In this document: positions 13,085 through 23,880 of the stretch, in pieces
Numbering within the stretch: position 1 is the first letter of the stretch
Layout: the number at the start of each line of letters is the position of its first letter
IMG/VR virus record: IMGVR_UViG_3300032333_000117
Coordinates: 1 to 30,744 of that record
Strand: one strand, 5' to 3'
Length of the DNA stretch: 30,744 nt
DNA from: a virus
The notes under the pieces: model-generated
What the model was told of the DNA's origin: nothing
What the model saw: the letters and a program-made list of their open reading frames with translations, nothing else
Database searches by the model: none
Made by a program: the position numbers and the translations under genes

Positions 13085-14302
13085 TCACATGCGGATGTGA
13101 ACAGTCTTGCCAACAGCCGGGCGAGCCGCCTTGTTGTTGAGCACACACCACAGCACGTCCATGTTCCAGTTCCCCCAGCCTCCGCCGAGGTGTCCATCAG
13201 TAAACACCACCGCTGCCGTAGCATCGATGTGGTTGGCGCGCAGGTAGTCCGTCACGCATTCCACGTTAGTGCCACCACCACCAGCGGGTTTGGTCGATGA
13301 TGCCAGTTCTGCCACGGGCATGTGGCCTTCGCCGTACACCTCAGCCGCACACACTCGCGTATCCCAGTACAACAAGTGCACACGAGTGACCATGACCGCC
13401 TCGAGCATGCCTATCACCTCTGACAAGAACTTGGTGAGATGTTCCTGCGCGATACTCATCGAAGTGTCCACTGCAATCACGATGTCCTCCATGCGCTCAC
13501 TGATACGCCCGGGGCGCAGTATGCCTGCGGCCATGCAGCGGCGGTTGAGTGTACGCCACGTAGCGTCCTCATCACCACGACATACGGTAGAGAAGAACTC
13601 ACGGGTGACCTCGCGCCAGTCCACCTCGACAGCAAGTAGCTCCTGTATCGCACGCCCACCTGTGCCCTTGCCCATCTTGGATGCGTTGATCACGCCCTGA
13701 CGCAGCGCCTCGTCAATGTCCTGCGCCAGCTGCTTCTGCTCATCCTTGCCCAAGTCCTGGGCACCAGCCCAGTCATGCGAGTCCATACCGTTGCTGGGTT
13801 GCGGCTGTTGCTGCTGTTGTTGCTGCTGTTGCTTCTGCTCATCACGCAGGATGTTGAACACCTGCGCCTCGTCCATGCCACGGAACCGGGTGTCGAGACA
13901 GCCCAGCGGCTTGCCGTCAGCCATCGGCATCTTCACAAACCCATCCGGGTTCTCGTCCACGATGGACAGGTTGATCACGTAGTCACACGCACGGTTGGCG
14001 AGGTCGGCATCGATGTCGTACATCCACTGGTAATGTATCAGGTGGCGGCGCACCTTGTGCTGGCTCTCGTGCAAGACTACGAACCGGAGGCAGGCGTCAT
14101 CGGCCAGCGTCTCGTCTACAAACTTCTTGCCATAGAACTCGTCACGCCCGTTGGTTGCTGCGGTGGGCAGGTCATCCTCGATCTTGCGTTCACCGATCAT
14201 GAACACACCGGCCATCACCGTGTATCGGTCATGGCTCATCAGTGCGTTGACTGCGCGCTCGAGACGCTGGGTGGTGGTCAGCGTAGGGTTGAATGAAAAC
14301 AT
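13085..14302 (-). CDS. DUF2201-type protein: HExxH metallopeptidase-like domain plus VWA domain
   Basis: The 405-residue protein has two parts. The N-terminal half shows VVLHESQHKVRRH with the HExxH zinc motif at residues 78-82, then DLANRACDYVINLSI, the pattern of the DUF2201 N-terminal metallopeptidase-like domain. A glutamine tract of about ten residues (from residue 156) links it to a C-terminal von Willebrand factor A domain, with the MIDAS motif DTSMS at 279-283 and GGGGTNVE, VVFTDGH later. Such proteins pair with MoxR-type AAA+ ATPases, as here, where the ATPase gene is immediately upstream. The pair is thought to act as a remodelling or metal-insertion chaperone; the phage substrate is unknown. 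Confidence 0.8.
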   Translation of the reverse strand: MFSFNPTLTTTQRLERAVNALMSHDRYTVMAGVFMIGERKIEDDLPTAATNGRDEFYGKKFVDETLADDACLRFVVLHESQHKVRRHLIHYQWMYDIDADLANRACDYVINLSIVDENPDGFVKMPMADGKPLGCLDTRFRGMDEAQVFNILRDEQKQQQQQQQQQPQPSNGMDSHDWAGAQDLGKDEQKQLAQDIDEALRQGVINASKMGKGTGGRAIQELLAVEVDWREVTREFFSTVCRGDEDATWRTLNRRCMAAGILRPGRISERMEDIVIAVDTSMSIAQEHLTKFLSEVIGMLEAVMVTRVHLLYWDTRVCAAEVYGEGHMPVAELASSTKPAGGGGTNVECVTDYLRANHIDATAAVVFTDGHLGGGWGNWNMDVLWCVLNNKAARPAVGKTVHIRM

Positions 14303-14334: not shown

Positions 14335-15474
14335 TCAGTTGCCGAACAGGTGTGCGTTGTCACGTGCCCATGCCATGTACTCGGGGCAGCGGACGATCTG
14401 CTGCAGGCGTGGGTAGTCCTTCACCCGGGTGCCATTGCCGAACAGTCCCTGCGCCGGACGATCCAGACGCTGCAGGTAAGTCATCCACTGCGGTGCCCAT
14501 GAACGATCGACCGTGGCCAGTGCACGGAACACCAGCATGCAGACAGCTGACACTTTGTCAGGGATGCGTGCACCCATCGGGTCGTTGATGATCTCGTCCT
14601 TGCTGGGTATCTGCGTCATCAACGTGTTGTACGCCATCAGGTCCGATGCTGCACGGGGACCAACGGTGCCGGCCAGTGCTGCGCGCAGCATGTCGTCTGA
14701 GAACCTGCCACCTGCAGCAAGTACTGCGTCACGGTCATGCATGATGTCGCTGGCACCCTCGAGTGAACGCCCAGTAACAAATGCCACAGGCTTGCTGGCA
14801 GCACGTGGATCATAGATGTGCGGTGCCTCGCGCTCGGTGATGTCCGGGGACTCGAAGTCCATGAAGCTATAGAACAGCTGCGGCGTGTCCTTGGACCATG
14901 CCTGCACCGTGGGGTGAACACCTGCGGCGATCGACCAGCCCAGCCAGCCCAGCTGGTCGGACTTCTTCATGGTCACCACGGTGCAGCGGTTGCGGCCATG
15001 CGCTGGTAACAAGTCACCAAGACCCTCGGCCCCGAGGTTGGTAGTAGCGAACACCCGGGAGTCGGGGTGCAGCTGCATGTTGCCGTACTTGCGCTCATAC
15101 AGGACACGCAGCACAGCGTTGAACGCGGAGCGTGGCATCTTGCCGATCTCATCGAACATGAGGAGGACTGGCCCATCCAAGTGCAGGCCCAGCTCCTCAT
15201 GCGGCAGGGTAGTGAAGGTCATACCATCGGCGCTGTACTTGACCATGAAGAAGTCACCGCTGTCGGTCTTGGTGGTGCAGTCGATGTAGATGCTGGTGTA
15301 GTCGGCGAACTGCGGCATCGCCCCGATGATGTTCAGCAGGGCAGACTTGCCCCAGCCCATCTCGCCCTGCACGATGATGGTACGGTTGTGGCCGGTCGCT
15401 GCGATCAGGTCAGCGGTGTCGTCAATGTCCAGTGCAAACTGGTTGATCAGGTTGAATGCGGTACGTGCGGTCAT
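14335..15474 (-). CDS. MoxR/CobS-like AAA+ ATPase
   Basis: The 379-residue protein carries Walker A, QGEMGWGKSALL (residues 36-47), Walker B, VLLMFDEIGKM (103-113), and sensor 1, RVFATTNLGAEG (140-151). This arrangement is typical of the MoxR/CobS group of AAA+ ATPases, which form hexamers and work with VWA-domain partners. The next gene encodes that partner. The C-terminal 150 residues have a lid-like helical region with RSLEGASDIM. A separate promoter (15539-15566) and a stem-loop leader (15493-15508) with a GAGGAAGACGCT ribosome-binding site precede the start, so the pair may be made at a different level from the upstream genes. Confidence 0.88.
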   Translation of the reverse strand: MTARTAFNLINQFALDIDDTADLIAATGHNRTIIVQGEMGWGKSALLNIIGAMPQFADYTSIYIDCTTKTDSGDFFMVKYSADGMTFTTLPHEELGLHLDGPVLLMFDEIGKMPRSAFNAVLRVLYERKYGNMQLHPDSRVFATTNLGAEGLGDLLPAHGRNRCTVVTMKKSDQLGWLGWSIAAGVHPTVQAWSKDTPQLFYSFMDFESPDITEREAPHIYDPRAASKPVAFVTGRSLEGASDIMHDRDAVLAAGGRFSDDMLRAALAGTVGPRAASDLMAYNTLMTQIPSKDEIINDPMGARIPDKVSAVCMLVFRALATVDRSWAPQWMTYLQRLDRPAQGLFGNGTRVKDYPRLQQIVRCPEYMAWARDNAHLFGN

Positions 15475-15492: not shown

Positions 15493-15508
15493 TAGGGCCG
15501 TGGCCCTA
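15493..15508 (-). promoter_or_regulatory. Stem-loop in the leader of the AAA+ gene
   Basis: A TAGGGC/GCCCTA stem with a four-base loop lies about 20 bases before the ATG at 15474, immediately followed by a purine-rich ribosome-binding site, AGAGGAAGACGCT. The same layout, with unrelated stem sequence, recurs before three small genes at 20.3-20.8 kb. It may protect the 5' end after processing or modulate translation. Confidence 0.55.
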
Positions 15509-15538
15509 AGTTGTGGTTGGTTGTGTTACGTTTGGTGC

Positions 15539-15566
15539 ATTATACTGAAGTTTGTTATGGAGTCAA
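15539..15566 (-). promoter_or_regulatory. Consensus sigma70 promoter before the AAA+ gene
   Basis: The -35 box TTGACT (15566-15561) and a perfect -10 box TATAAT (15544-15539) are 16 bp apart on the minus strand. Start of transcription would be near 15532, giving a leader of about 60 bases with a stem-loop. It is the closest to consensus of the promoters in the window. Confidence 0.8.
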
Positions 15567-15576
15567 GGTTGTCGGT

Positions 15577-15903
15577 TTAGCGCAGCCGGTTAGCCCAGAA
15601 CTCCGCCGCTTGCTGTCGGGTCAGGGTCACGCCGAGCACCGAGCTGGTCACCTGTACGAGGATGTCCAGTGCTGTCATTGCTTCCTCTACTGCGTAGATG
15701 GACGGCGTGTACTCCTGCTCCACTGTGGGTACCGTGGGTATCGTGGGTTGTACTGCTGGCAACTCAAGCTCCAGCTGCTCTTCCTGCCTCACTTCTTGCT
15801 GTGCTGCTTTCCTCGCTGCTCGTGCAACGTCCCGGGATACGCGCATCTTCTCGAGACGTGCAGCCCGCTCCTCGGGGGGCAAGCTGCTCCAAAAGGGCTT
15901 CAT
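15577..15903 (-). CDS. Helical protein of unknown function between DUF3150 and AAA+ genes
   Basis: The frame is open back to 16026, but that start would overlap the DUF3150 gene by 62 bp. The ATG at 15903 (108 residues) has no ribosome-binding site. A clear one, TAAGGAG, lies after the DUF3150 stop and points to an ACG codon at 15954 with ideal spacing; a TTG at 15975 is also possible. The protein starts charged (KPFWSSLPPEERAARLEKMR), continues with an Arg/Ala-rich helix, a Pro/Val linker and a final helix set (LTRQQAAEFWANRL). No family recognised; position suggests it belongs to the AAA-VWA module. Confidence 0.5.
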   Translation of the reverse strand: MKPFWSSLPPEERAARLEKMRVSRDVARAARKAAQQEVRQEEQLELELPAVQPTIPTVPTVEQEYTPSIYAVEEAMTALDILVQVTSSVLGVTLTRQQAAEFWANRLR

Positions 15904-15964
15904 GTTCTGGCTGCATACAACGCGGAAGGTTTTGTTTTTGCGACCGTCTTTCGTGGGGCTCTCC

Positions 15965-16906
15965 TTACCAGCCAAGGCTGGGTATGTTGTTGATGATGTT
16001 GTCGATCTTCTGTTTCGTCTCAGCACGCAGGGTGTCGCTAGTCTTCAGCGCATCGTAGGTCACCCCAGTCAGCGCGTCCTTCAACTCGAGACGCACCCGC
16101 TCCATCTCGGTGTCCTGCGTCAGGTTGCATGTCCGCATGATCTCCACGATGTCCAGCACGTTCTGCACCAGCGTGCTCTGGAACCCGGACGGTTTGCCGT
16201 TGTCCTTGTCGGTCAGGCGCAGGCTCATGTTCTTGAGCGGGACCAGCAGTCGATCCCACACCCCACGCATCGCATCCTGCAGGCGGCTGCTCACGCTTGC
16301 CTCGTACATCTCGGCCAGCTCCTTGCGGATGTCCGCCTCGATCACACCCCGGAAGTCAGTCGGTTCGGGCATGGGCTCCATGAAGAACGACCAGCGGAAC
16401 TTACTGCGCAGGGTGGCCACTGAGGGATAGTCACCCTCGTCAAACGCATCGCCCAGCTCCAGCTGTGCACGTGCCACCTGTGCTGGGTAGTCTCGCAGGA
16501 ACGCCTCGCGGTGGTGCTCCAGCTGTGCAAAGTAACTGCGGACGGTGTTCATAACGTCTATGATGTACTCGTTCGGCATCATGTACCTGCCCCTGTCGTA
16601 GTCGGCAGTCTTGCTGCGGATGTACGCCCGCATCTCCCCCTCGATGCGCTTGCACTCGTGCAGGTTGGCACTGTCCACCAACTTCTTGGGCACCCGCAGG
16701 CGCCCTTTGTCGGCGTGCTTCACCTCGGCCAGCTCGGCGGCTAACTTCTTGTCGTTCACCTCGAGGGAGGGAACGCCTATGGACAGGGTGACCAGCTGGA
16801 TGCAGTCGGACACGCGCAGTGTCGGTTTGATGTCGGCCATGTGGGTGGCGTTGGTGTTGCTGGTGTTAGCCGATTGACTAACATTGTTGCTGGTGTATGC
16901 GTTCAT
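15965..16906 (-). CDS. DUF3150-like protein, partner of AAA+/VWA module
   Basis: The 313-residue protein has the features I associate with DUF3150: an N-terminal LVTLSIGVPSLEVNDKKLAAE, a middle DYDRGRYMMPNEYIIDVMN, then FLRDYPAQVARAQLELGDAF and DEGDYPSVATLRSKFRWSFF. The rest is helical, with two probable coiled coils. DUF3150 genes are often found beside CobS/MoxR-like ATPases and VWA proteins in mobile elements, exactly the situation here. Biochemical role unknown. The first 22 residues are a low-complexity Asn/Ser/Thr stretch whose DNA includes one copy of the 18-bp palindrome; an internal ATG at residue 23 (MADIKPTLRVSD) could be the true start. A promoter lies at 16985-17013. Confidence 0.7.
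   Translation of the reverse strand: MNAYTSNNVSQSANTSNTNATHMADIKPTLRVSDCIQLVTLSIGVPSLEVNDKKLAAELAEVKHADKGRLRVPKKLVDSANLHECKRIEGEMRAYIRSKTADYDRGRYMMPNEYIIDVMNTVRSYFAQLEHHREAFLRDYPAQVARAQLELGDAFDEGDYPSVATLRSKFRWSFFMEPMPEPTDFRGVIEADIRKELAEMYEASVSSRLQDAMRGVWDRLLVPLKNMSLRLTDKDNGKPSGFQSTLVQNVLDIVEIMRTCNLTQDTEMERVRLELKDALTGVTYDALKTSDTLRAETKQKIDNIINNIPSLGW
16865..16882. promoter_or_regulatory. Palindrome copy 1: GTTAGCCGATTGACTAAC
   Basis: It matches the intergenic copies at 15 of 18 positions but lies inside the first codons of the DUF3150 gene, about 100 bp downstream of its promoter. This fits a repressor site acting as a roadblock, or a site that shaped the low-complexity N-terminus. Confidence 0.6.
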
Positions 16907-16984
16907 GGTGTAGCCCTCTTGTGTTGGTGTTGTTGGTGTTGTTGGTGTTGCGTTGTACTGCGTTTCCCTGACTTCTTAGGAACC

Positions 16985-17013
16985 ATTTAACCACACTTGT
17001 GGGTGTAAGTCAA
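16985..17013 (-). promoter_or_regulatory. Sigma70-type promoter before the DUF3150 gene
   Basis: On the minus strand TTGACT (17013-17008) and TTAAAT (16990-16985) are 17 bp apart. The transcript would start near 16978 and have a leader of about 70 bases made of CAACAC-type repeats before the ATG at 16906. Confidence 0.7.
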
Positions 17014-17061
17014 GGTTTCTGCTTGTTCTATGCTGTTGTGTTATGTTTGCTTGTGTTTGCT

Positions 17062-17193
17062 TCACACCCTCCCTGTAGCGAATATGCTATCGCCCAATGT
17101 AAACAGGACGAACGTCAGTATGCCTATGGCAGCTGCGCCCAACACGCTCCCCACTGCCACCATTACTATCACTCCCCAGTTGTTGCCTTGCAT
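17062..17193 (-). CDS. 43-residue single-pass membrane protein
   Basis: ATG 17193 follows GAAGAGGAC. The product MQGNNWGVIVMVAVGSVLGA continues with AAIGILTFVLFTLGDS, one long hydrophobic segment with small residues (Gly, Ala) that favours helix packing, and a short tail. The start overlaps the upstream stop by one base. The open frame extends to 17280, but the part upstream of 17193 is polar and without a start signal. It may be an inner-membrane peptide acting on the host; its role is unknown. Confidence 0.6.
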   Translation of the reverse strand: MQGNNWGVIVMVAVGSVLGAAAIGILTFVLFTLGDSIFATGRV

Positions 17194-17456
17194 CACATAG
17201 TCCTCTTCGGGTTCAGCTGTGCCAGCTGTTGTGGGTCGGTTATCAGGATGTAATTGCTCTTGTTCATCGGCGCCACGCACCAGCTGGCTCGTTGCTGTAC
17301 TGCCTCGAAGTCGCCGCAGTCCTTGCAGGTCTCATACCCAAGGTCGGCCCTGCGCTTGTCGTACATGGTGCCACAGGACGCGCACTCCACGTGCTCGTCA
17401 GGATCAAGCCACCACTGTTCCTCGTTGATCGTCAGTCTGCTGTGTTCTGTTTTCAT
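17193..17456 (-). CDS. 87-residue zinc-ribbon phage protein
   Basis: ATG 17456 follows CAACGAGGAACCCAGC, a good ribosome-binding site. The protein has a CxxC...CxxC zinc ribbon: HVECASCGTMYDKRRADLGY then ETCKDCGDFEA. A conserved-looking tail, CVAPMNKSNYILITDPQQL, resembles the end of small phage proteins of unknown function. It may be a nucleic-acid or protein-binding adaptor. The stop touches the next start. Confidence 0.65.
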   Translation of the reverse strand: MKTEHSRLTINEEQWWLDPDEHVECASCGTMYDKRRADLGYETCKDCGDFEAVQQRASWCVAPMNKSNYILITDPQQLAQLNPKRTM

Positions 17457-17496
17457 GCTGGGTTCCTCGTTGGTTGTGGGTGTTGTGGGTTGTTCT

Positions 17497-18252
17497 TCAA
17501 AACTTACTAGCACGGCTGCCGTGTACCACGATCGCTATGTTCGGCTTGCCTGCAACCGATTCGCTCTTACCTCCGCACAGCATGCAGTCGGCGCAGGACA
17601 TGCCTTTGGAGTCGGACAGGCACTCGATCTCGTTGGGTCGGAGCTCGGTGATGTCGTGCACTATGCGGAAGGTCCGGGCCTTGTCGGCCCACAGGTTGAT
17701 TGATGTCTTCGCCGTTTCAGTACTCGCCATGCAGTACTGCAGCACCTCCGGGTCAAAATTCTTGTGGCGCATCTGGTGCGTGTAGCCGGTATGGCCGGAT
17801 GCAAAGGTCACAAGGTCACGCAGTACTCGTACTGGCACCGCCGCAGGATCGCCGTAGGCGCCCAGCCGGACCTTTCGGTTGCGCAATATCTTAGCCAGTA
17901 TTTGGTTGCGCAGTGGGGTGGCTGCAGGATGGGTCAGGTCCATGTATGCGCCTCGTTTGTATGCACGGTAGATTGATGTCGGTGCCTGTCCAAGGTTGAC
18001 GTAGCACGCGCCGCCGACCGACCACTTGTGTGGGCAGTTACCACAGATTGCGCTGTCCAGTTTTTTCTTGCTTGCATCCAGTGGGGACATGTCTTCCCGG
18101 ATGATCCATGTCTGGACCATGTCGCCGGTCTTGCGGTTGTTTGTTCGGGTAGTTAAAAGCATTATGATCGGCGCACCATCCAGCATGGATGGGCCTTTGT
18201 ACACGATGTAGCCGGTCGGGTTTTTCTTGCTGGTCTTGTTGGTCTTGCGCAT
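17497..18252 (-). CDS. Conserved phage/plasmid protein (DUF7227-like), unknown function
   Basis: The start is set at ATG 18252 because GAGGGCAAGGCA precedes it; the frame extends to 18300 through the 18-bp palindrome. The 251-residue protein shows KGPSMLDGAPIIMLLTTRTN, then SAICGNCPHKWSVGGACYVN (four cysteines counting the later ones), VRLGAYGDPAAVPVRVLRDL and SGHTGYTHQM. A later SCADCMLCGGK adds more cysteines. This pattern is widespread in phages and plasmids, often annotated as hypothetical; I recall it as DUF7227 but cannot check. The eight or so cysteines suggest metal or Fe-S binding. It is the first gene after the control region, read from promoter 18358-18386. Confidence 0.75.
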   Translation of the reverse strand: MRKTNKTSKKNPTGYIVYKGPSMLDGAPIIMLLTTRTNNRKTGDMVQTWIIREDMSPLDASKKKLDSAICGNCPHKWSVGGACYVNLGQAPTSIYRAYKRGAYMDLTHPAATPLRNQILAKILRNRKVRLGAYGDPAAVPVRVLRDLVTFASGHTGYTHQMRHKNFDPEVLQYCMASTETAKTSINLWADKARTFRIVHDITELRPNEIECLSDSKGMSCADCMLCGGKSESVAGKPNIAIVVHGSRASKF

Positions 18253-18280
18253 TGCCTTGCCCTCGTTGGTTGCGTTGTTT

Positions 18281-18298
18281 GTTAGGTAATGGACTAAC
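18281..18298. promoter_or_regulatory. Palindrome copy 2: GTTAGGTAATGGACTAAC
   Basis: It lies in the leader of the DUF7227-like gene, about 60 bp downstream of the -10 box at 18358-18363. A protein bound here would block the elongating or initiating polymerase. Confidence 0.7.
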
Positions 18299-18357
18299 AT
18301 TTGTGCATGATTGCTGCACTGTTGGTGCTGTTTTGCTTTCCCTCACCAACAGCCTAT

Positions 18358-18386
18358 AGTATACGACAAAACTGAACATAAGTCAA
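18358..18386 (-). promoter_or_regulatory. Sigma70-type promoter of the leftward block
   Basis: TTGACT (18386-18381) and TATACT (18363-18358) are 17 bp apart on the minus strand. Palindrome copies lie 15 bp upstream (18401-18418) and about 60 bp downstream (18281-18298), so this looks like a controlled early promoter. Confidence 0.8.
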
Positions 18387-18400
18387 GTAAACAGAAACAT

Positions 18401-18418
18401 GTTAGGTAATAGACTAAC
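18401..18418. promoter_or_regulatory. Palindrome copy 3: GTTAGGTAATAGACTAAC
   Basis: It lies 15 bp upstream of the -35 box of the promoter at 18358-18386. With copy 2 it brackets the promoter about 120 bp apart, a distance that would allow DNA looping. Confidence 0.7.
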
Positions 18419-18470
18419 AAAGGGAGATATAGGGAAAATGGTGGTGTAGGTAGTGTGCTGATTCGTTATG

Positions 18471-18484
18471 TGTACCTAGGTACA
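18471..18484. repeat. Perfect palindrome TGTACCTAGGTACA, copy 1
   Basis: A 14-bp perfect palindrome, repeated exactly at 18908-18921. Its core CCTAGG also occurs in TTTCCTAGGAAA at 18794-18805, so this six-base palindrome appears three times in about 450 bp. Confidence 0.7.
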
Positions 18485-18752
18485 GAAGTATTGGTGTTGG
18501 ATGTAGTTGTGTTTCGTGTGTAGGGGTCGGGGAATATCCCTATTTTCTGTGTGTACCTTTTTTTCGGCAAAATCGGGAAAATTGGAGGAAAAATCGGGAG
18601 AAACTTCAATGAATACAACCGTGTAACCAAGCACTTCTAAAACGTACTTTGTTTGTTGCTGTAAGTTGTTGATTATAAAGGCTTGTAACTTTTGTACTTT
18701 TGTACCTCGAAAAAAGAACCTCGGACCTTTTTGGGGGGTGGGGGGTGAGAAT

Positions 18753-18771
18753 GATAATGATTCGCATTCCC
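18753..18771. promoter_or_regulatory. Fur-box-like sequence
   Basis: GATAATGATTCGCATTCCC matches the 19-bp Fur consensus at 14 of 19 positions, with the left nine bases identical. It follows two G6 runs. No gene starts directly beside it, so any regulation by host iron status is speculative; it may also be chance in AT-rich DNA. Confidence 0.35.
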
Positions 18772-18824
18772 CTACTTACGTAGGTCGGCTGCATTTCCTA
18801 GGAAAAAAAGGTAACAAAGTACAC

Positions 18825-18881
18825 TTATTATTATTATTTATTATTATTATATATTATCTATTATTATTGTTTTTTATATTA
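18825..18881. other. 57-bp A/T tract, candidate DNA-unwinding element
   Basis: Only two G/C bases occur among 57, and much of it is a TTA-TTA triplet repeat. Such tracts melt easily and mark unwinding elements of origins. The tract is flanked by palindromes on both sides. Confidence 0.5.
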
Positions 18882-18907
18882 GCTACTAAACAGCACATCA
18901 GTACCTT

Positions 18908-18921
18908 TGTACCTAGGTACA
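18908..18921. repeat. Perfect palindrome TGTACCTAGGTACA, copy 2
   Basis: Exact copy of the 14-bp palindrome at 18471. It is preceded by GTACCTTTGTAC (18901-18912), whose reverse complement GTACAAAGGTAC lies at 18993-19004, forming an additional inverted pair about 80 bp apart. Confidence 0.7.
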
Positions 18922-19046
18922 CATAACAAAACGCAAATCCGCTCAATTCGTACCTTTTCGATCTCCACAAATGGCACAAAATAAATCAAAAAGTACAAAG
19001 GTACGCGGCCCGTACGGACCCCATTTGCACAATATTTACATACTTT

Positions 19047-19064
19047 GTTAGGTAATTGCCTAAC
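19047..19064. promoter_or_regulatory. Palindrome copy 4: GTTAGGTAATTGCCTAAC
   Basis: This copy has the most symmetrical sequence, with only one base pair breaking the dyad. Copy 5 lies exactly 90 bp to the right. Confidence 0.75.
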
Positions 19065-19087
19065 AATACCGCGCGTCGCCGATCGCC

Positions 19088-19114
19088 GCAGCACGCCGCG
19101 AGGGAACTGGTCTC
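19088..19114. repeat. 27-bp repeat, copy 1
   Basis: A 27-bp sequence starting GCAGCACGCCGCG and ending AACTGGTCTC is found again, identical, at 19219-19245 and, with a few changes, at 20149-20175. It is non-coding and lies to the right of an 18-bp palindrome. Confidence 0.75.
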
Positions 19115-19136
19115 GCCTCCCTCACAAATCAGCCTT

Positions 19137-19154
19137 GTTAGTCAATTGCCTAAC
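19137..19154. promoter_or_regulatory. Palindrome copy 5: GTTAGTCAATTGCCTAAC
   Basis: This copy differs from copy 4 in its left half (TC for GT) and lies between the two identical 27-bp repeats. Confidence 0.75.
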
Positions 19155-19218
19155 AAACCAGCACATCCTGCACGCCGAAGCTGGGCTTTGTGGGAATAAG
19201 TTATGGTGGGGCCGCCGG

Positions 19219-19245
19219 GCAGCACGCCGCGAGGGAACTGGTCTC
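19219..19245. repeat. 27-bp repeat, copy 2
   Basis: Identical to the copy at 19088-19114, in the same orientation, start-to-start distance 131 bp. Confidence 0.75.
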
Positions 19246-19330
19246 AAGGGGTGGGGGAGTTTGTTGGGGTGCGCCAGCTTGGCGCGAACCAGATGGGTGG
19301 TGCCTGAATCACTTTTCTCGGGGCGAAAAA

Positions 19331-19353
19331 AAGCCCCGCACATGGCGGGGCTT
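19331..19353 (-). terminator. Rho-independent terminator of the 163-residue gene
   Basis: AAGCCCCGC and GCGGGGCTT form a 9-bp stem with a five-base loop, and on the minus strand a T-run follows (positions 19332-19326). It lies 16 bp after the stop at 19369 and isolates this gene from the control region. Confidence 0.9.
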
Positions 19354-19368
19354 GGTAGAGCGGGTGGA

Positions 19369-19860
19369 TCACTTCAGCAGCTTGGCGATTTCTGCCAGCT
19401 TGGCCAGAACCGGAGTGACATCGAAATCCGGCGTCTCCATTTTCTGGATCATGTCCACCATGTCTGCCAGCTTGATGCTGACTCGAACACGTGGCGTGTT
19501 CTTTGTTGCCGGACCACGCGAGTCCGCCTCGATACGCTTGCGCAATGCAGCGCGGAGTTTGCCCAACAAGCTGCCACGCTGTTGCATCTGATAGCGGCGC
19601 TCGGCCTTCTTTTCCTCGCTCAGGTCGCGGGCCTGTGCATTCAGTACCGCCTGTGCAGCTTTCGGCATGCCGGCCTGAATGAAATTGAGCAGGCTGTCGT
19701 AGAACGTGCGGTCGCCATCCTTTGCAGGGGCTTCCATTGCTTCGGGCGTCACACCGTCTGCAATCAGGCCGTCAACTGCCAGCTTGGTGCGGGCTCCGAA
19801 GGCAACGCCAGCTTCGGCAAACTTGATGATGTTGGAACCGGTAGTGGTGGAGATTTTCAT
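19369..19860 (-). CDS. 163-residue helical protein, unknown function
   Basis: I start at ATG 19860 (MKISTTTGSNIIKFAEAGVA), with GGGA eight bases before; ATG 19872 has no site. The protein has a Lys/Arg-rich middle, ARDLSEEKKAERRYQMQQRG, that could bind nucleic acid, and a C-terminal MVDMIQKMETPDFDVTPVLA with short helices. I do not recognise a family. It has its own promoter (19922-19950) and a strong terminator (19331-19353), so it is a single-gene unit beside the control region; together with the repeats this makes a role in control or replication plausible, but unproven. Confidence 0.75.
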   Translation of the reverse strand: MKISTTTGSNIIKFAEAGVAFGARTKLAVDGLIADGVTPEAMEAPAKDGDRTFYDSLLNFIQAGMPKAAQAVLNAQARDLSEEKKAERRYQMQQRGSLLGKLRAALRKRIEADSRGPATKNTPRVRVSIKLADMVDMIQKMETPDFDVTPVLAKLAEIAKLLK

Positions 19861-19921
19861 AGCTATTCCCATGCACGGAAGGAGTCAGAGACGTTCAGGC
19901 CGTGCCCTCAACGTGGAAACA

Positions 19922-19950
19922 ATTACACCACAAGTTACCCAAGATTGCAA
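19922..19950 (-). promoter_or_regulatory. Promoter of the 163-residue gene
   Basis: TTGCAA (19950-19945) and TGTAAT (19927-19922) are 17 bp apart on the minus strand. The spacer TCTTGGGTAACTTGTGG is nearly identical to that of the promoter at 21072-21100 (TCTTGGGCACCTTGTGG), so the conserved element extends beyond the hexamers. Confidence 0.75.
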
Positions 19951-20008
19951 GCTCTTTTGTAAGTTATTGATTCGTTTAATGAATTTTCATGCTGTTTAGT
20001 GTGTTTTT

Positions 20009-20026
20009 GTTAGGTAATTGACTAAC
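20009..20026. promoter_or_regulatory. Palindrome copy 6: GTTAGGTAATTGACTAAC
   Basis: It lies about 60 bp upstream of the -35 box of the 19922-19950 promoter and 13 bp left of the 11-bp direct repeats. Confidence 0.75.
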
Positions 20027-20038
20027 AAGAGCCGAATC

Positions 20039-20093
20039 GTGGCGGGTGCGTGGCGGGTGCGTGGCGGGTGCGTGGCGGGTGCGTGGCGGGTGC
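20039..20093. repeat. Five perfect 11-bp direct repeats (iteron-like)
   Basis: The unit GTGGCGGGTGC is repeated five times without change. An 11-bp period is close to one helical turn, so a protein bound to each unit would sit on the same face. Iterons of this kind bind replication initiators; slippage of a GC-rich microsatellite is the alternative. No convincing gene crosses it. Confidence 0.9.
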
Positions 20094-20148
20094 GCAATGT
20101 GGCACGCCGAGGAAATTTGATGGAGATTTCGAGGTCGAAAAGCTCGGG

Positions 20149-20175
20149 GCAGCGCGCCGCGCGAGAACTGGTATC
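20149..20175. repeat. 27-bp repeat, degenerate copy 3
   Basis: It begins GCAGCGCGCCGCG and ends AACTGGTATC, matching the copies at 19088 and 19219 apart from a few substitutions. It borders the hairpin at 20177. Confidence 0.6.
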
Positions 20176-20176
20176 A

Positions 20177-20196
20177 AACCCACATCCTTGTGGGTT
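20177..20196 (-). terminator. Hairpin after the 31-residue gene
   Basis: AACCCACA and TGTGGGTT form an 8-bp stem with a four-base loop, just after the stop at 20201. On the minus strand it is followed by TGAT, so the U-tract is weak. It probably ends the short leftward transcript begun at 21072-21100. Confidence 0.55.
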
Positions 20197-20200
20197 CCGG

Positions 20201-20296
20201 TCAGAGCAAGAAGAGCAGGACCGTGATGATATACAGACAGGCGGCTGTTGCAATCGAGCCCAACACAATCCCTGCCCAATACAATACTACTTTCAT
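20201..20296 (-). CDS. 31-residue single-pass membrane peptide
   Basis: ATG 20296 is preceded by TGAGGAGATAGTT, one of the best ribosome-binding sites in the window. The product MKVVLYWAGIVLGSIATAAC continues with LYIITVLLFLL, almost entirely hydrophobic. It is therefore a probable single membrane span. It is the last of four small genes with a shared leader layout, and it is followed by a hairpin. Short peptides like this in early phage regions often modify host functions; its target is unknown. Confidence 0.65.
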   Translation of the reverse strand: MKVVLYWAGIVLGSIATAACLYIITVLLFLL

Positions 20297-20299
20297 AAC

Positions 20300-20320
20300 T
20301 ATCTCCTCAGTTTAAGTGGC
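20300..20320 (-). repeat. 21-bp repeated leader block, copy 1
   Basis: A 21-bp block containing CTCCTCAGTTTAAGTGG is identical at 20752-20772. On the minus strand it holds the stem edge, TTAAACT and the GAGGAGATA ribosome-binding site, so two genes share the same leader module. Confidence 0.8.
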
Positions 20321-20335
20321 GCCATCCGTGGCGCC
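20318..20335 (-). promoter_or_regulatory. Intercistronic stem-loop before the 31-residue gene
   Basis: GGCGCCA and TGGCGCC form a 7-bp stem with a TCCG loop (top-strand reading). No T-run follows; instead ACTTAAACTGAGGAGATAG leads into the next start. It looks like a processing or translation element rather than a terminator. Confidence 0.6.
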
Positions 20336-20339
20336 GTGG

Positions 20340-20540
20340 TTATCTGTGGAATGTTGCGAAGGTCGTTATATCTTGCCCTATTCTGGCACTGACGAAGTAA
20401 CCGCCAGTTATGTACCAGAGTCGGATAACTACCCGGTCCAGCCAGTACGTACTGGCCAAATCAACCAACATCAGCGACCGTTGAGACGGGTCGCGGTAGT
20501 GCCATTCGGCGTGTTCCTTCCATCCATCATTATCTTGCAT
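20340..20540 (-). CDS. 66-residue small early protein, unknown
   Basis: ATG 20540 follows GAGGAAGACGCT. The product MQDNDGWKEHAEWHYRDPSQ then RSLMLVDLASTYWLDRVVIR and WYITGGYFVSARIG is rich in aromatic residues and hydrophobic strands. It may be peripheral to the membrane, though no clear span is seen. It is one of four genes in the short unit from the promoter at 21072-21100. No family recognised. Confidence 0.65.
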   Translation of the reverse strand: MQDNDGWKEHAEWHYRDPSQRSLMLVDLASTYWLDRVVIRLWYITGGYFVSARIGQDITTFATFHR

Positions 20541-20558
20541 AGCGTCTTCCTCAGTGAT

Positions 20559-20574
20559 GGGCCATCCATGGCCC
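20559..20574 (-). promoter_or_regulatory. Intercistronic stem-loop before the 66-residue gene
   Basis: GGGCCA and TGGCCC pair around a TCCA loop, followed on the minus strand by TCACTGAGGAAGACGCT and the ATG at 20540. Same layout as the hairpins at 20318, 20770 and 15493. Confidence 0.6.
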
Positions 20575-20586
20575 GGGTTGTTATGG

Positions 20587-20748
20587 TTAGTGTCCTGCCT
20601 CGACCAACTCTTTCGCTAGTCCCAGCGCCTTTTGGTACGCTGTGTCTGCTTCCTTTTCCCTACCTACCATGAGCATCATGCCCATGAATTGGAGTTGGAA
20701 CAGCAGCTGCTCTGCTGTGGTCTTTTCTGTTGCTACGGTGTTGTTCAT
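20587..20748 (-). CDS. 53-residue small early protein, unknown
   Basis: ATG 20748 follows CTGAGGAGATAGAC. The product MNNTVATEKTTAEQLLFQLQ continues with a methionine-rich FMGMMLMVG and a charged helix, EKEADTAYQKALGLAKELVE. It is an amphipathic helical protein. The gene lies between two stem-loops, in the same unit as its neighbours. No family recognised. Confidence 0.6.
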   Translation of the reverse strand: MNNTVATEKTTAEQLLFQLQFMGMMLMVGREKEADTAYQKALGLAKELVEAGH

Positions 20749-20751
20749 GTC

Positions 20752-20772
20752 TATCTCCTCAGTTTAAGTGGC
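20752..20772 (-). repeat. 21-bp repeated leader block, copy 2
   Basis: Identical to 20300-20320; it contains the ribosome-binding site of the 53-residue gene and the edge of the hairpin at 20770. Confidence 0.8.
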
Positions 20773-20789
20773 CCCCCTTGCGGGGGGCC
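20770..20789 (-). promoter_or_regulatory. Strong GC stem-loop before the 53-residue gene
   Basis: GGCCCCCC and GGGGGGCC form an 8-bp stem with a TTGC loop. It is 7 bp after the stop at 20797, and without a T-run it leads into TTAAACTGAGGAGATAG. It is strong enough to stop exonucleases or partly terminate. Confidence 0.65.
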
Positions 20790-20796
20790 GGGTTGA

Positions 20797-21024
20797 TTAC
20801 TTGTTCAGGCAGGGGGCTTTTACTTCACGAACACCTTCTTCCTCAGAAGAGTAGTCACGAAGCAGGTCGAACCCACCCAGAAACCCACCGTACTCTTTCT
20901 GGAACAGCTCGAGGTTGCGCTCGTCAAGCTGGCATACTGCGCGGTGCAATGTACGGGCTGCATCGTGGAGTGACCAAACCCGGGTGTCCGAAAAGCCTTT
21001 GTTGCTGAAGTTGGAGCCTTGCAT
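20797..21024 (-). CDS. 75-residue early protein, unknown
   Basis: ATG 21024 follows CAACGAGGAAGACGTT; the longer frame to 21060 has no site. The product MQGSNFSNKGFSDTRVWSLH continues with DAARTLHRAVCQLDERNLEL and an acidic C-terminus, and looks soluble and helical. It is the first gene after the promoter at 21072-21100, so it is probably the most strongly expressed of the four. No family recognised. Confidence 0.65.
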   Translation of the reverse strand: MQGSNFSNKGFSDTRVWSLHDAARTLHRAVCQLDERNLELFQKEYGGFLGGFDLLRDYSSEEEGVREVKAPCLNK

Positions 21025-21071
21025 AACGTCTTCCTCGTTGCGGTTCAGGACCATTCCCAAACCGTGAAGCT

Positions 21072-21100
21072 ATTAGACCACAAGGTGCCCAAGAAGTCAA
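21072..21100 (-). promoter_or_regulatory. Leftward promoter of the four-gene early unit
   Basis: TTGACT (21100-21095) and TCTAAT (21077-21072) are 17 bp apart on the minus strand; the spacer TCTTGGGCACCTTGTGG recurs at 19928-19944 with two differences. It lies at the switch point between the leftward and rightward blocks. Confidence 0.8.
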
Positions 21101-21210
21101 GCGTTTTGTTTAGTTTTGTGCAGTATTGTTGAGCCTAGCTGTGTCGAATGCAGATGGGTTATGGGGCGACCCCACCATACCCGGTACCCCCCTTTGTGCG
21201 CGTTGGTTCC

Positions 21211-21996
21211 ATGGCCCGCTTAGTAATACTATTCCGCGCAAGCAAATCCCAAAAATCGCAAAAGCCGGCTAACGCGAAAAATTCCAGTCGGTCCAAAAAG
21301 TCCAGAAAGTCCAAAACCAGCAAGCCCCCCACCCCCAAACAAAACGCCCCCAGCCAGACCCCACCCCCCTCAATACAGCAAACACCCCCACTTGCAAATA
21401 AAGTACCCAGTACATACACTGCGCGCACCCAGTACCCAGTACTTGCGCTTATGATGAAAGAAATGCCTGACGGCACCTTAGACCTGCCAGACGAGATCAA
21501 CATCACCGATCTCCAACTGAACGCATCCAGCGCGTGTAGGAACCTCGACCTCCTTGATAAACACAACATGGAGCTGTCGGGAGGGTTCGAGAGTGGGGAC
21601 GACGACCCGTTTGCGGTCCCGCTCCCTCCACCCAAGCTACGCACCCCGTTGGCCAAAACCAAGACGACCGCGTCACTCCTGCAGATATACAACATTCTGC
21701 AGGAGTTCGGTGGCTCACTGAACGCTACCCCGGAAGAAGTCCGCAACACGGTGGTTAACAAGCTGCTCTTGGAGTTGGAGAACCCTGACCCGAAGATACG
21801 GCTGAAAGCTATCGAACTGCTCGGTACGGTACCCGGCGTAGACCTGTTTGGCACCAAACGAACCTTGGCAGAAGCCCCCAAAACCAACGCCCCCGCCAAA
21901 GATCAGCTGAAAGAGCGCCTCAAAAAGCTAAAAGAGAGCATGGAAGGGGTGTACGAGAGCCCTGTGGCCCCCGAAGAGGGGGATTCTGACGAGTGA
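21211..21996 (+). CDS. Putative terminase small subunit
   Basis: The frame is open from 21148, and no start has a good ribosome-binding site; I use ATG 21211 (MARLVILFRASKSQ) but a later start near 21451 (MMKEMPDGTLDLPDE) is possible. The first 75 residues are lysine-, serine- and proline-rich and disordered. The folded part has SLLQIYNILQEFGGSLNATP and DPKIRLKAIELLGTVPGVDL, which resembles the helical segment of small terminase subunits, and the C-terminus is a charged coiled coil. Position directly before TerL, with a 4-bp overlap, supports recognition of phage DNA for packaging. The N-terminal extension is unusual. Confidence 0.6.
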   Translation: MARLVILFRASKSQKSQKPANAKNSSRSKKSRKSKTSKPPTPKQNAPSQTPPPSIQQTPPLANKVPSTYTARTQYPVLALMMKEMPDGTLDLPDEINITDLQLNASSACRNLDLLDKHNMELSGGFESGDDDPFAVPLPPPKLRTPLAKTKTTASLLQIYNILQEFGGSLNATPEEVRNTVVNKLLLELENPDPKIRLKAIELLGTVPGVDLFGTKRTLAEAPKTNAPAKDQLKERLKKLKESMEGVYESPVAPEEGDSDE

Positions 21997-23666
21997 ACGC
22001 CGCGGTAAAGCCCAGAAAAGCCCCGTTCCCCTTCACTCCAGAGGAATTGAACCTCCTGCTGGACAATATCGACTCCTGTACCCCAAAAGAACAGTCAGAA
22101 TTGCTGAAATTGGTGGAACAATTCGAGGAACAGCAGCGGTTAGAGGCGTGTCGTACCGACTTGATTGAATTCTGCAAGACCATGCAGCCCGATTATAAGG
22201 TCGGTAAGCACCACCGGGCGTTGGCGGACATGCTGATGTCGCTGGAGCTGGGGGTTAACGGGAAAGAAGAGCAGGGGAAAGACCGTATTTGCGTCAATAT
22301 GCCCCCTCGTCACGGTAAATCACAGCTGATTTCCCTCTATTTTCCTGCGTGGTTCTTGGGGCGCAACCCCGACAAGAAGATACTCATGGTGTCCCACACC
22401 ACGGACTTGGCAGAAACTTTCGGTAGAAAGGTGAGGAACCTCGTCAGTACAACTGAGTACGCTGAGATATTCCCCGGCACGAAGCTGGCCATCGACAACA
22501 AGGCGGCACGCCGCTGGAACACAAGTGTCGGGGGCGAGTACTTCGCCTGTGGTGTGGGCTCCGCCTTGGCCGGACGAGGCGCCCACCTGCTGATTGTTGA
22601 CGACCCACATAACGAGCAGGACATCATCAATGGGAACCTTGACGTCTTTGACAAGGCGTATGAGTGGTTCACGTACGGTGCCCGTACCCGTCTGATGCCG
22701 AACGGGCGTGTGGCGATCTGCCAGACAAGGTGGCACATGGACGACCTGACTGGGCGTCTTGTCCGGGACATGGCACAGAACGAGCTGTCCGACAAATACG
22801 AGGTCGTGGAGTTCCCGGCGATCTTCGAGATTGAGCAAGAAATAGAAACCCCCCTGAACCCGGACGACCCAGACTCCCCAACGACCACAACAACCCGCAT
22901 CATCGAGAAAGCGCTCTGGCCGGAGTTCTACGACCTCCCTGCCCTGCACCGCACCAAAGCGTCCATGCCCCTGTTCCAGTGGAACGCGCAGTACCAGCAG
23001 AACCCGACAGCCGAAGAGGCGGCGGTGGTCAAGCGCGAGTGGTGGAACTTGTGGCCCCACGAGGACCCGCCCAAGTGTGAGTACCTGATCATGTCCTTGG
23101 ACGCCGCTGCTGAGACTGGCAACCGGGCGGACTACACGGCGATAACCGTGTGGGGGGTGTTCATGTACGAGGACACCATCCGCGACAACGCCGGGGACGT
23201 GATAGGAGTGCCGGGCACCTTTAATATTGTCCTGCTGGACTGCGTCCGCAAACGCCTCGAGTTCCCTGAGTTGAAGGACGAGTCGATGCAGCTGTATAGG
23301 CAGTGGGAGCCAGACGCGTTCATTGTGGAGAAGAAGGGCAGCGGCACACCGCTGTATCAGGAGTTACGTCGGTCAGGACTTCTTGTACAAGAGTACACCC
23401 CACATCGCGGTTCTGGTGATAAGATGGCAAGACTGAACTCAGTTGCTGATATTATCCGGTCTCGTATGGTGTGGGTCCCCCAGACACGCTGGGCGGAAGA
23501 GCTCGTGGAGGAGGTGGCGGGGTTCCCGTTCATGTCCCACGACGACTTGGTGGACTCCACTGTGATGGCCCTGATGCGGTTCAGGCAGGGAGGGTTCCTC
23601 CGACTGCCCAGTGACGAGCCTGAAGAGCCACAATACTACAAACGGCGGAGAGAAGGTTACTACTAA
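21993..23666 (+). CDS. terL: Terminase large subunit
   Basis: The 557-residue packaging motor starts with GTG overlapping the previous stop (GTGA). The ATPase domain has Walker A, NMPPRHGKSQLISL (about 102-115), and Walker B, HLLIVDDPHNEQD (about 198-210), followed by ICQTRWHMDDLTGRL. The C-terminal RNase-H-like nuclease shows MSLDAAAETGNRADYTAITV with its first Asp, FIVEKKGSGTPLYQEL and SHDDLVDSTVMALM with the late Asp pair. All expected parts are present. It cuts concatemers and drives DNA into the prohead through the portal encoded downstream. Confidence 0.95.
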   Translation: MNAAVKPRKAPFPFTPEELNLLLDNIDSCTPKEQSELLKLVEQFEEQQRLEACRTDLIEFCKTMQPDYKVGKHHRALADMLMSLELGVNGKEEQGKDRICVNMPPRHGKSQLISLYFPAWFLGRNPDKKILMVSHTTDLAETFGRKVRNLVSTTEYAEIFPGTKLAIDNKAARRWNTSVGGEYFACGVGSALAGRGAHLLIVDDPHNEQDIINGNLDVFDKAYEWFTYGARTRLMPNGRVAICQTRWHMDDLTGRLVRDMAQNELSDKYEVVEFPAIFEIEQEIETPLNPDDPDSPTTTTTRIIEKALWPEFYDLPALHRTKASMPLFQWNAQYQQNPTAEEAAVVKREWWNLWPHEDPPKCEYLIMSLDAAAETGNRADYTAITVWGVFMYEDTIRDNAGDVIGVPGTFNIVLLDCVRKRLEFPELKDESMQLYRQWEPDAFIVEKKGSGTPLYQELRRSGLLVQEYTPHRGSGDKMARLNSVADIIRSRMVWVPQTRWAEELVEEVAGFPFMSHDDLVDSTVMALMRFRQGGFLRLPSDEPEEPQYYKRRREGYY

Positions 23667-23878
23667 TGGCTGACCCCCTCGACTGGCTCCGCAGCAACAT
23701 GCCGAGCTTCACGCCCGAGGCGAAGGAGCTGGCCAAAGCAAGGTTGGAGGACTGCAAAGCTTGTCCTCAGTTAGTCAGGGCGACTGGGCAGTGCCGCGAG
23801 TGCGGCTGCATGATGCCGGTCAAGGTGTTTTTCCGTAATGCAAAGTGCCCACTGGGTAAGTGGGGAGAGGCGGAGTAA
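23666..23878 (+). CDS. 70-residue zinc-binding protein between terminase and portal
   Basis: Seven cysteines occur in KARLEDCKACPQLVRATGQC, RECGCMMPVKVFF and NAKCPLGKW, the pattern of a small zinc-ribbon protein often encoded next to phage terminases. The start shares one base with the terL stop (TAATG) and follows AGAAGG. It may help packaging or head assembly; role not known. Confidence 0.7.
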   Translation: MADPLDWLRSNMPSFTPEAKELAKARLEDCKACPQLVRATGQCRECGCMMPVKVFFRNAKCPLGKWGEAE

Positions 23879-23880
23879 AA

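Follow-up and report, generated by a model that had tools for sequence, protein, structure and literature searches.

A repeated palindrome and a candidate cognate regulator that differ together between closely related uncultivated phages

The window analysed here is the whole of IMG/VR virus record IMGVR_UViG_3300032333_000117 (30,744 bases), and the motif scan was confined to that record. It carries a palindrome, GTTAG-N8-CTAAC, in six exact copies within 3.2 kb (Table 1). An earlier note, made from the sequence alone, had reported these copies, and exact matching confirmed their coordinates and their GTTAG/CTAAC arms. The same note had named random occurrence at equal density elsewhere as grounds for rejection; no other exact match was found in the 30,744 bases, and in dinucleotide-preserving shuffles the mean number of exact copies was 0.01 and the largest 1, six being reached in none of 100. 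When two mismatches were allowed, 15 matches were found against 9.4 expected, and 5 of 100 shuffles reached that number, so only the exact six-copy set stands out. All six palindromes extend to TGTTAG...CTAACA. Their centre, announced as ATTG, has that sequence in four of six, the copy at 18281 having ATGG and that at 18401 ATAG. Extra flanks (TT before, AA after), attributed to most sites, are present on both sides in the three at 19047, 19137 and 20009 and not in the other three.

According to the list of open reading frames (ORFs), genes left of about 21 kb are read leftward, and the terminase and structural genes rightward. The ORF of a gene that we call C sits between palindromes 5 and 6. 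It is the best candidate binder of the palindromes, and the initial impression that the window holds no repressor thus probably fails. The leftward promoter said to be bracketed by two of the sites has its consensus match between palindromes 2 and 3, whose starts are 120 bp apart. Three leftward promoters had been proposed near the sites, which our results bear out only in part: a scan of positions 15500-22000 gave four leftward matches (15566, 18386, 18860 and 20253) and, with both strands counted, 5 matches where 3.6 are expected; the one at 18386 is the sole leftward match inside the site cluster to score at least 10 of 12. Since the window terminase is 41-42% identical to those of 023Pt_psg01, HTVC027P and DSL-LC04, phages of 58-62 kb, the record probably represents about half a genome.

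Table 1. Coordinates of the palindromes and neighbouring features in the window
Feature	Position	Strand	Remarks
MoxR-type ATPase	14335..15474	minus	phrog_1297 'ATPase'; leader often with a palindrome in relatives
DUF3150-like protein	15965..16906	minus	PF11348 E 0.0057, under its cut-off
Palindrome 1	16865..16882		Inside first codons of ORF 15965-16906 if the start is 16906; alternatively 24 bp upstream of the start, if that is the ATG at 16840
phrog_2554 protein, function unknown	17497..18252	minus	E 1.4e-72; first gene past the bracketed promoter
Palindrome 2	18281..18298		5' leader, 28 bp ahead of the called start codon (18252) of ORF 17497-18252
Sigma-70-like promoter	18358..18386	minus	TTGACT-17-TATACT, 10 of 12; between palindromes 2 and 3
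Palindrome 3	18401..18418		14 bp upstream of the -35 hexamer of the leftward promoter 18358..18386
Non-coding stretch	18420..19330		AT-rich at 18501-19000 (GC 0.36); holds palindromes 4 and 5 and other repeats
Palindrome 4	19047..19064		Non-coding stretch past the terminator-like hairpin of gene C
Palindrome 5	19137..19154		Same non-coding stretch, 90 bp away from palindrome 4
Intrinsic-terminator-like hairpin after gene C	19331..19353	minus	9 pairs, 7 GC, T tail
Gene C	19369..19872	minus	167 residues, predicted all-helical, candidate palindrome-binding regulator; possible later start 19860
Palindrome 6	20009..20026		About 136 bp upstream of the gene C ORF

IMG/VR was scanned with a terminase and with a MoxR profile (at least 80 loci each), and the window, 160 IMG/VR loci and four phage-isolate pieces (L196-L199) made up a set of 165 sequences. 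Some palindrome with 6-bp arms is present in three or more copies (3 to 17) in 75 of the 165, an upper figure, as some of these families are simple or terminator-like repeats (e.g. second families, L204, L205). None of the 165 resampled controls (first-order, one per sequence) held such a family, nor did any of the four isolate pieces. The palindrome sequence mostly differs between loci and from that of the window: examples are GTTAGTG-N3-CACTAAC, GTAGTG-N3-CACTAC and GTTAGTC-N4-GACTAAC, and further GTTATAGAATCTATAAC, GTTAGGGAATTCCCTAAC and GCGGACACGTGTCCGC, while locus L191 retains the window arms in four copies of GTTAG-N8-CTAAC. Conservation of the arms in related phages, which the earlier note had proposed as a check, therefore misses the point; the arms are mostly not kept, and what is conserved is position and symmetry.

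Other occurrences were recorded along the way. A scan for GTTAGNNAATTGNCTAAC returned 111 stretches, mostly with a single copy, and we estimate that most of them are chance matches. Dispersed GTTAG...CTAAC palindromes (GTTAGCC...GGCTAAC-like) are present in the viral contigs L029, L051, L061, L099, L100 and L107, with up to 14 in the 11.9 kb of L051. Around a DUF3150-like gene in a contig of a metagenome-assembled genome (MAG; L319, CAIRQE010000106.1), GGGTAC-N2-GTACCC is repeated seven times. Two palindrome types coexist at some loci: L226 and L230 hold GTTAGTC and GTTATGC types together, the type directly upstream of MoxR not being the same in the two; L237 and L275, and similarly L243, have two types with TTAGTG arms and a 3- or 4-bp centre; and the two types of L279 have different arms. 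Close relatives of the proteins of ORF 17497-18252 and gene C were not found in viral contigs, and megablast of window positions 16000-25000 against phages gave no match.

Further information was obtained from the position of the sites at 35 hand-chosen loci with C, MoxR and DUF3150 (222 sites, L205 excluded; sites in the opening 30 bases of an ORF were counted as outside it, in the controls likewise). Outside called ORFs lie 164 of the 222 sites, against 27% of control positions, and 69 of the 222 are located 10-29 bp before a start codon, which is 11.2 and 13.4 times control. Leader sites were defined as the 80 sites of this set at 10-39 bp before a start. A promoter scoring at least 10 of 12 is found upstream of 24 of them, its -10 element ending 29-84 bp before the site, where shuffling predicts 1.0; for the other 56, no promoter of that score was seen within 120 bp. 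The promoters upstream of start-proximal sites indicate that many sites lie in the transcribed leader. Sites occur near the start of C at 28 of 35 loci, of DUF3150 at 25 of 35, of MoxR at 22 of 35 and of a von Willebrand A (vWA)-like gene at 11 of 30; at DUF3150 the site often overlaps or adjoins the first codons, in the window as in relatives. In five long relatives, with records of ~60 kb, the exact sites span about 2.5 to 17 kb, on the side where C, DUF3150 and MoxR are encoded (for G004 and G006 the span runs over the ends of the record, and the G002 figure leaves out 681 bases).

The gene C family, collected with an iterated hidden Markov model, comprises 57 loci including the window, and its members are 16-35% identical to window C in a 40-row alignment. 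A repeated palindrome accompanies C at 52 of the 57 loci (46 with three or more copies, 6 with only two); the remaining five, L130, L157, L169, L174 and L176, are contigs of 5.0-8.2 kb. A palindrome copy lies no more than 260 bp upstream of the C ORF at 39 of these 52 loci, one of which (L205) is a terminator-like repeat. L187, L208, L212, L229, L246 and L252 have no detectable C and carry an ORF of 200-250 residues in its slot. Comparison of gene C with Pfam, PHROGs and NCBIfam gave no match that was above cut-off or convincing. AlphaFold2 models window C and L243 C as all-helical, with predicted local distance difference test values of 81.9 and 94.0 and predicted template modelling scores of 0.59 and 0.69, respectively. 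Foldseek returned no match in PDB for either model (best E 2.5 and 3.2) or in BFVD for window C. With VIA-align the best Z scores were 4.7 and 4.9, over partial helices, and no chain reached Z of at least 5, which does not make the fold of C new. Weak alignments to sigma factors (Z 4.3, 3.3, 3.0) and hints below the Pfam cut-off in single members (HTH_Cmi2_C, E 6.8e-5, L257; PSK_trans_fac, E 0.0017, L206) were not used. The windows of C that best follow the motif fall in a segment of 40 residues (83-122, L243 C numbering), which carries a net positive charge in all of the 34 members compared.

A natural experiment is offered by two phages that are closely related except in C. Loci L248 and L244 are 99-100% identical to L260 in MoxR and 96-97% in DUF3150, and only 16-18% in C. 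GTTAGGG-N4-CCCTAAC is present in seven copies in L248, six in L244 and none in the 34.6-kb record of L260, whereas L260 has seven copies of GTAGTCC-NN-GGACTAC, of which L248 and L244 have none; the palindromes of phages with L248-type and L260-type C are GTTAGGGAATTCCCTAAC and GGTAGTCCGTGGACTACC. At three sites, the one in the MoxR leader and the two that follow it, L248 and L260 have almost the same flanks and differ in the 18-20 bp of the palindrome. The surroundings differ more around C, in the non-coding stretch and where DUF3150 starts, and site positions there are not all equal. All 21.9 kb of the L248 record were also compared with bases 20001-60000 of L300, a 60-kb record that matches L260 at 100% over 11.7 kb. 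Both L300 and L301 represent the L260 phage and do not count as separate cases. Where L248 and L300 align, identity is 91-98%, save for 226 bases adjoining C at 80%. Of 24 L248 ORFs of at least 70 residues, 22 are matched in L300, 17 of them at 97% or more; the unmatched two are C and a glycosyltransferase (PF11397), a gene that L300 lacks at this position. Consequently, C is the sole gene swapped for a very different member of its own family within the region compared. The switch makes a prediction, which was tried on nine new loci with L248-type C (L304-L312): GTTAGGG sites were found in nine of nine and GTAGTCC sites in none. Eight of these have C proteins 56-67% identical, and L312 contains only the end of C, at 84%. 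The suggestion in the earlier note of a regulon is borne out in that sites are enriched just before starts in relatives and that two close phages with different C have different sites.

Starting from what is established (the repeats, their placement, the promoters upstream of part of them, and C and palindromes that differ together in two close phages), we favour, at somewhat better than even confidence, the reading that the palindromes are operators of a phage-encoded, probably dimeric regulator, likely C, that would repress the leftward genes. C, read leftward from behind palindrome 6, would regulate its own expression. It would bind the sites as a dimer. At sites in the 5' leader, downstream of the promoter and ahead of the ribosome binding site of leftward genes, bound C would either stop RNA polymerase as a roadblock or block its start, so that early genes are repressed. 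Relatives would keep this layout while C and the palindrome diversify, giving different operator codes in different phage groups. Other candidates for the binder were rejected: DUF3150 and MoxR are 96-97% and 99-100% identical, respectively, in phages with different sites. For DUF3150, moreover, weak cross-matches of the C profile to DUF3150 proteins fail in profile comparison (hhalign probability 0.9%).

Covariation across loci was analysed on sets drawn from 44 loci with C, MoxR and DUF3150 before dereplication (37, 35, 44 and 36 used, depending on the analysis); L205, whose motif is terminator-like, is in the correlation and identity sets and out of the position, window and distance-class sets. 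Among dereplicated pairs with a C distance below 0.5, the motif distance is at most 0.12 in eight of eight, while of four pairs with a MoxR distance below 0.1 two have clearly different motifs, both being the L260 event.

Several observations weigh against C as the operator-binding regulator. Motif distance over 37 loci correlates better with DUF3150 (0.53) and MoxR (0.49) than with C (0.28); the partial correlation of C given MoxR is 0.11 (p 0.13), and MoxR and DUF3150 are significant given C. The same order holds for the best windows (DUF3150 0.54, MoxR 0.49, C 0.38). Distances between C proteins have reached saturation (mean p-distance 0.80, with 603 of 630 pairs exceeding 0.65), which may, but need not, explain the weak correlation. 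L226 and L235 share the same palindrome with C proteins only 23% identical, and at least five loci (L226, L230, L237, L275, L279) carry two palindrome sets with one detectable C each. As to placement, for 90 of the 222 sites the next called start is over 200 bp away, and 13 of the 52 loci have no palindrome copy just upstream of C. As to the protein, Foldseek against PDB and BFVD gave no fold match, no helix-turn-helix was identified in C, and the remainder of C is often basic too (net positive in 23 of 34). The C/palindrome switch is one event in one lineage; the comparison spans 21.9 kb only, the DUF3150 N-terminus differs between L248 and L300, and three further ORFs have diverged (66.7, 77.0 and 88.7%). 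Four of the nine prediction loci hold a single site, and all nine are relatives of L248. Because the cross-locus correlations, the L226/L235 pair and the loci with two sets do not fit, we can only infer from the sequences that C binds the palindromes, although we hold this to be quite probable. More tentatively, and at somewhat less than even confidence, C could represent a new helical DNA-binding family with very fast turnover of specificity, which, together with the many operators close to start codons, would give each lineage a private operator code and an immunity-like incompatibility between virulent-looking phages, all operators of a genome changing in step with C.

The sites could instead act at the RNA level, as leader hairpins before the ribosome binding site that C or another phage protein would bind, affecting translation, processing or antitermination. 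Site position is indeed tighter to the start codon (10-29 bp) than to the promoter (29-84 bp), and 79 of the 80 leader sites are predicted to fold into hairpins at or below about -2 kcal/mol (median -5.4). However, wobble pairs are not enriched: imperfect sites have 8 G.T against 25 A.C on the sense strand (pooled p 0.005), or 4 against 14 by locus (p 0.03), and hairpin stability favours neither strand (sense 12, antisense 12). Moreover, palindromes 3-5 of the window either precede the promoter or follow the terminator-like hairpin of C, and are thus probably not in a leader. The mismatch pattern, the equal hairpin stability and the placement of palindromes 3-5 favour DNA binding, with a possible role for RNA; we regard control at the RNA level as unlikely.

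We also judge it improbable, though no search aimed at partition or initiator families was made, that the palindromes are origin, partition or nucleoprotein sites whose binder is a replication initiator or a segregation protein organising the phage DNA. Two window sites do lie in a partly AT-rich non-coding stretch with other repeats (18420..19330, a possible origin), and G001 has three non-coding sites far from starts. An origin or partition set, the alternative raised in the earlier note, may hold for such AT-rich non-coding sites, but it leaves the sites ahead of start codons unexplained. Neither the enrichment at 10-29 bp before starts nor the spread of sites over up to about 15-17 kb follows from it.

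Still less probable is that the palindromes mark boundaries of recombination or mobile sequences, as joints for the exchange of cassettes or of the palindromes themselves. Most sites are intergenic, three sites differ between L248 and L260 over 18-20 bp with nearly unchanged flanks, and two palindrome types alternate in L226 and L230; but the genes adjoining those three sites are not exchanged between L248 and L300, and the upstream promoters and the spacing to start codons suggest control of expression. The least credible alternative is that the phage has borrowed sites of a host regulator, of MarR/SlyA type or other: the TTAG...CTAA arms resemble some MarR operators, but the palindromes are different even in close relatives, and most lineages have motifs of their own. 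As to a phage-encoded regulator of these families, MarR (PF01047) had no match in the 12 records searched (possibly fragments, the window being about half a genome), PF12802 none above its cut-off in 13 records (one weak match, in G005) and TetR_N (PF00440) none in 12 records, possibly fragments; these searches and the changing arms lend no support to a MarR/SlyA-type system.

The operators of lambdoid phage repressors are near-palindromic, of ~17 bp, few in number, placed at promoters and bound by helix-turn-helix proteins. The palindromes described here share the near-palindromic form and a specificity that differs between related phages; unlike lambdoid operators, they are many, and no protein passed the HTH_3 cut-off in 12 records (two weak partial matches). 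Closer likenesses are found in mycobacteriophages. Cluster A phages such as L5 and Bxb1 carry stoperators, many copies per genome and mostly away from promoters; these are asymmetric 13-bp sites mostly in one orientation, their consensus varies by subcluster in step with the cognate repressor, a stoperator-type site ahead of the repressor gene has been proposed to serve autoregulation, and the phages have integrase or parABS genes (PMC6550527). The repeated palindromes resemble stoperators in being many per genome, in a consensus that varies among phage groups, probably with the regulator, and in a site ahead of the candidate regulator gene. They differ in their palindromic form and length (15-20 bp), in that about one in three precedes a start codon by 10-29 bp, and in that no tyrosine integrase (PF00589) was found in 12 records and no resolvase (PF00239) in 13, records that may be incomplete. 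Likewise, a search of genome contigs with the DUF3150 profile gave no clear prophage, three MAG contigs being the only matches.

In Cluster K phages, start-associated sequences (SAS), asymmetric 13-mers over the ribosome binding site, lie at start codons of non-structural genes, and extended SAS (ESAS) are inverted repeats with 17-bp arms and a variable spacer of mostly 4-13 bp, with a consensus that differs by subcluster; their binder was not known to the authors of that study (PMC3203893). Our palindromes are like them in being inverted repeats just upstream of starts, here with shorter arms; the SAS 13-mer GGGATAGGAGCCC has no match in the window with up to 2 mismatches. On the features tested, the system works most like stoperators and is placed like SAS/ESAS, being a member of neither. 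No title or abstract start describing these palindromes was found in the literature searched, most subscription papers lying outside that search. We are probably dealing with a new variant of phage repressor-operator systems and a new regulator family.

A related arrangement is present in a cultured phage, Synechococcus phage MinM2 (OQ594354.1), which has genes annotated MoxR, DUF3150 and VWA-like and equals the Planktothrix phages Pag-Yong1 and Pra-JY27 in length and match scores; its annotated DUF3150 protein is 25.7% identical to ORF 15965-16906 of the window. With at most one mismatch, GGTTCAGnCTGAACC occurs 25 times in a 39.3-kb part and 8 times in the other 25.7 kb (33 in total; L280 and L320), and in none of 50 resampled sequences. 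When two mismatches are allowed in the 39.3-kb part, 14 of 26 sites precede one of 49 annotated starts by 5-40 bp, the distance being 21-22 bp for 8 of the 14. C was not detected in that part; an ORF of 187 residues, MM2_92, follows a GGTTCAGnCTGAACC site. Unlike the five long relatives, MinM2 has copies of its repeat in the structural half.

Other elements were noticed in the window, where no Rfam families or tRNA genes were found. The second element, GCAGCACGCCGCGAGGGAACTGGTCTC, occurs at 19088-19114, 19219-19245 and 20149-20175 (two copies identical, one 85%), and GGAACTGGT, whose 5' part is similar to it, is found again around gene C in several relatives, in many cases as two or three copies. 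Identical palindromes TGTACCTAGGTACA at 18471-18484 and 18908-18921 lie within the 36-nt arms (86% alike) of an inverted repeat on either side of an AT-rich tract (18825-18881), a possible origin. Adjoining palindrome 6, an 11-bp unit, CGTGGCGGGTG, is present in five tandem copies at 20038-20094, and two 32-nt stretches that are 91% identical (20292-20323 and 20744-20775) precede small leftward ORFs. The gene at 13085-14302 belongs to a PHROG family named HNH endonuclease; its sequence reads more like that of a vWA-type protein, and it may be one, beside MoxR.

In summary, our results predict a regulator-operator pair without a recognised fold in many uncultivated phages, with a specificity that would be readable from sequence. 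About 40 natural C-palindrome pairs, together with one pair of phages nearly alike over 22 kb, make the joint change of regulator and operator testable. Such a pair could explain how related phages without signs of lysogeny keep their regulation private or exclude one another.

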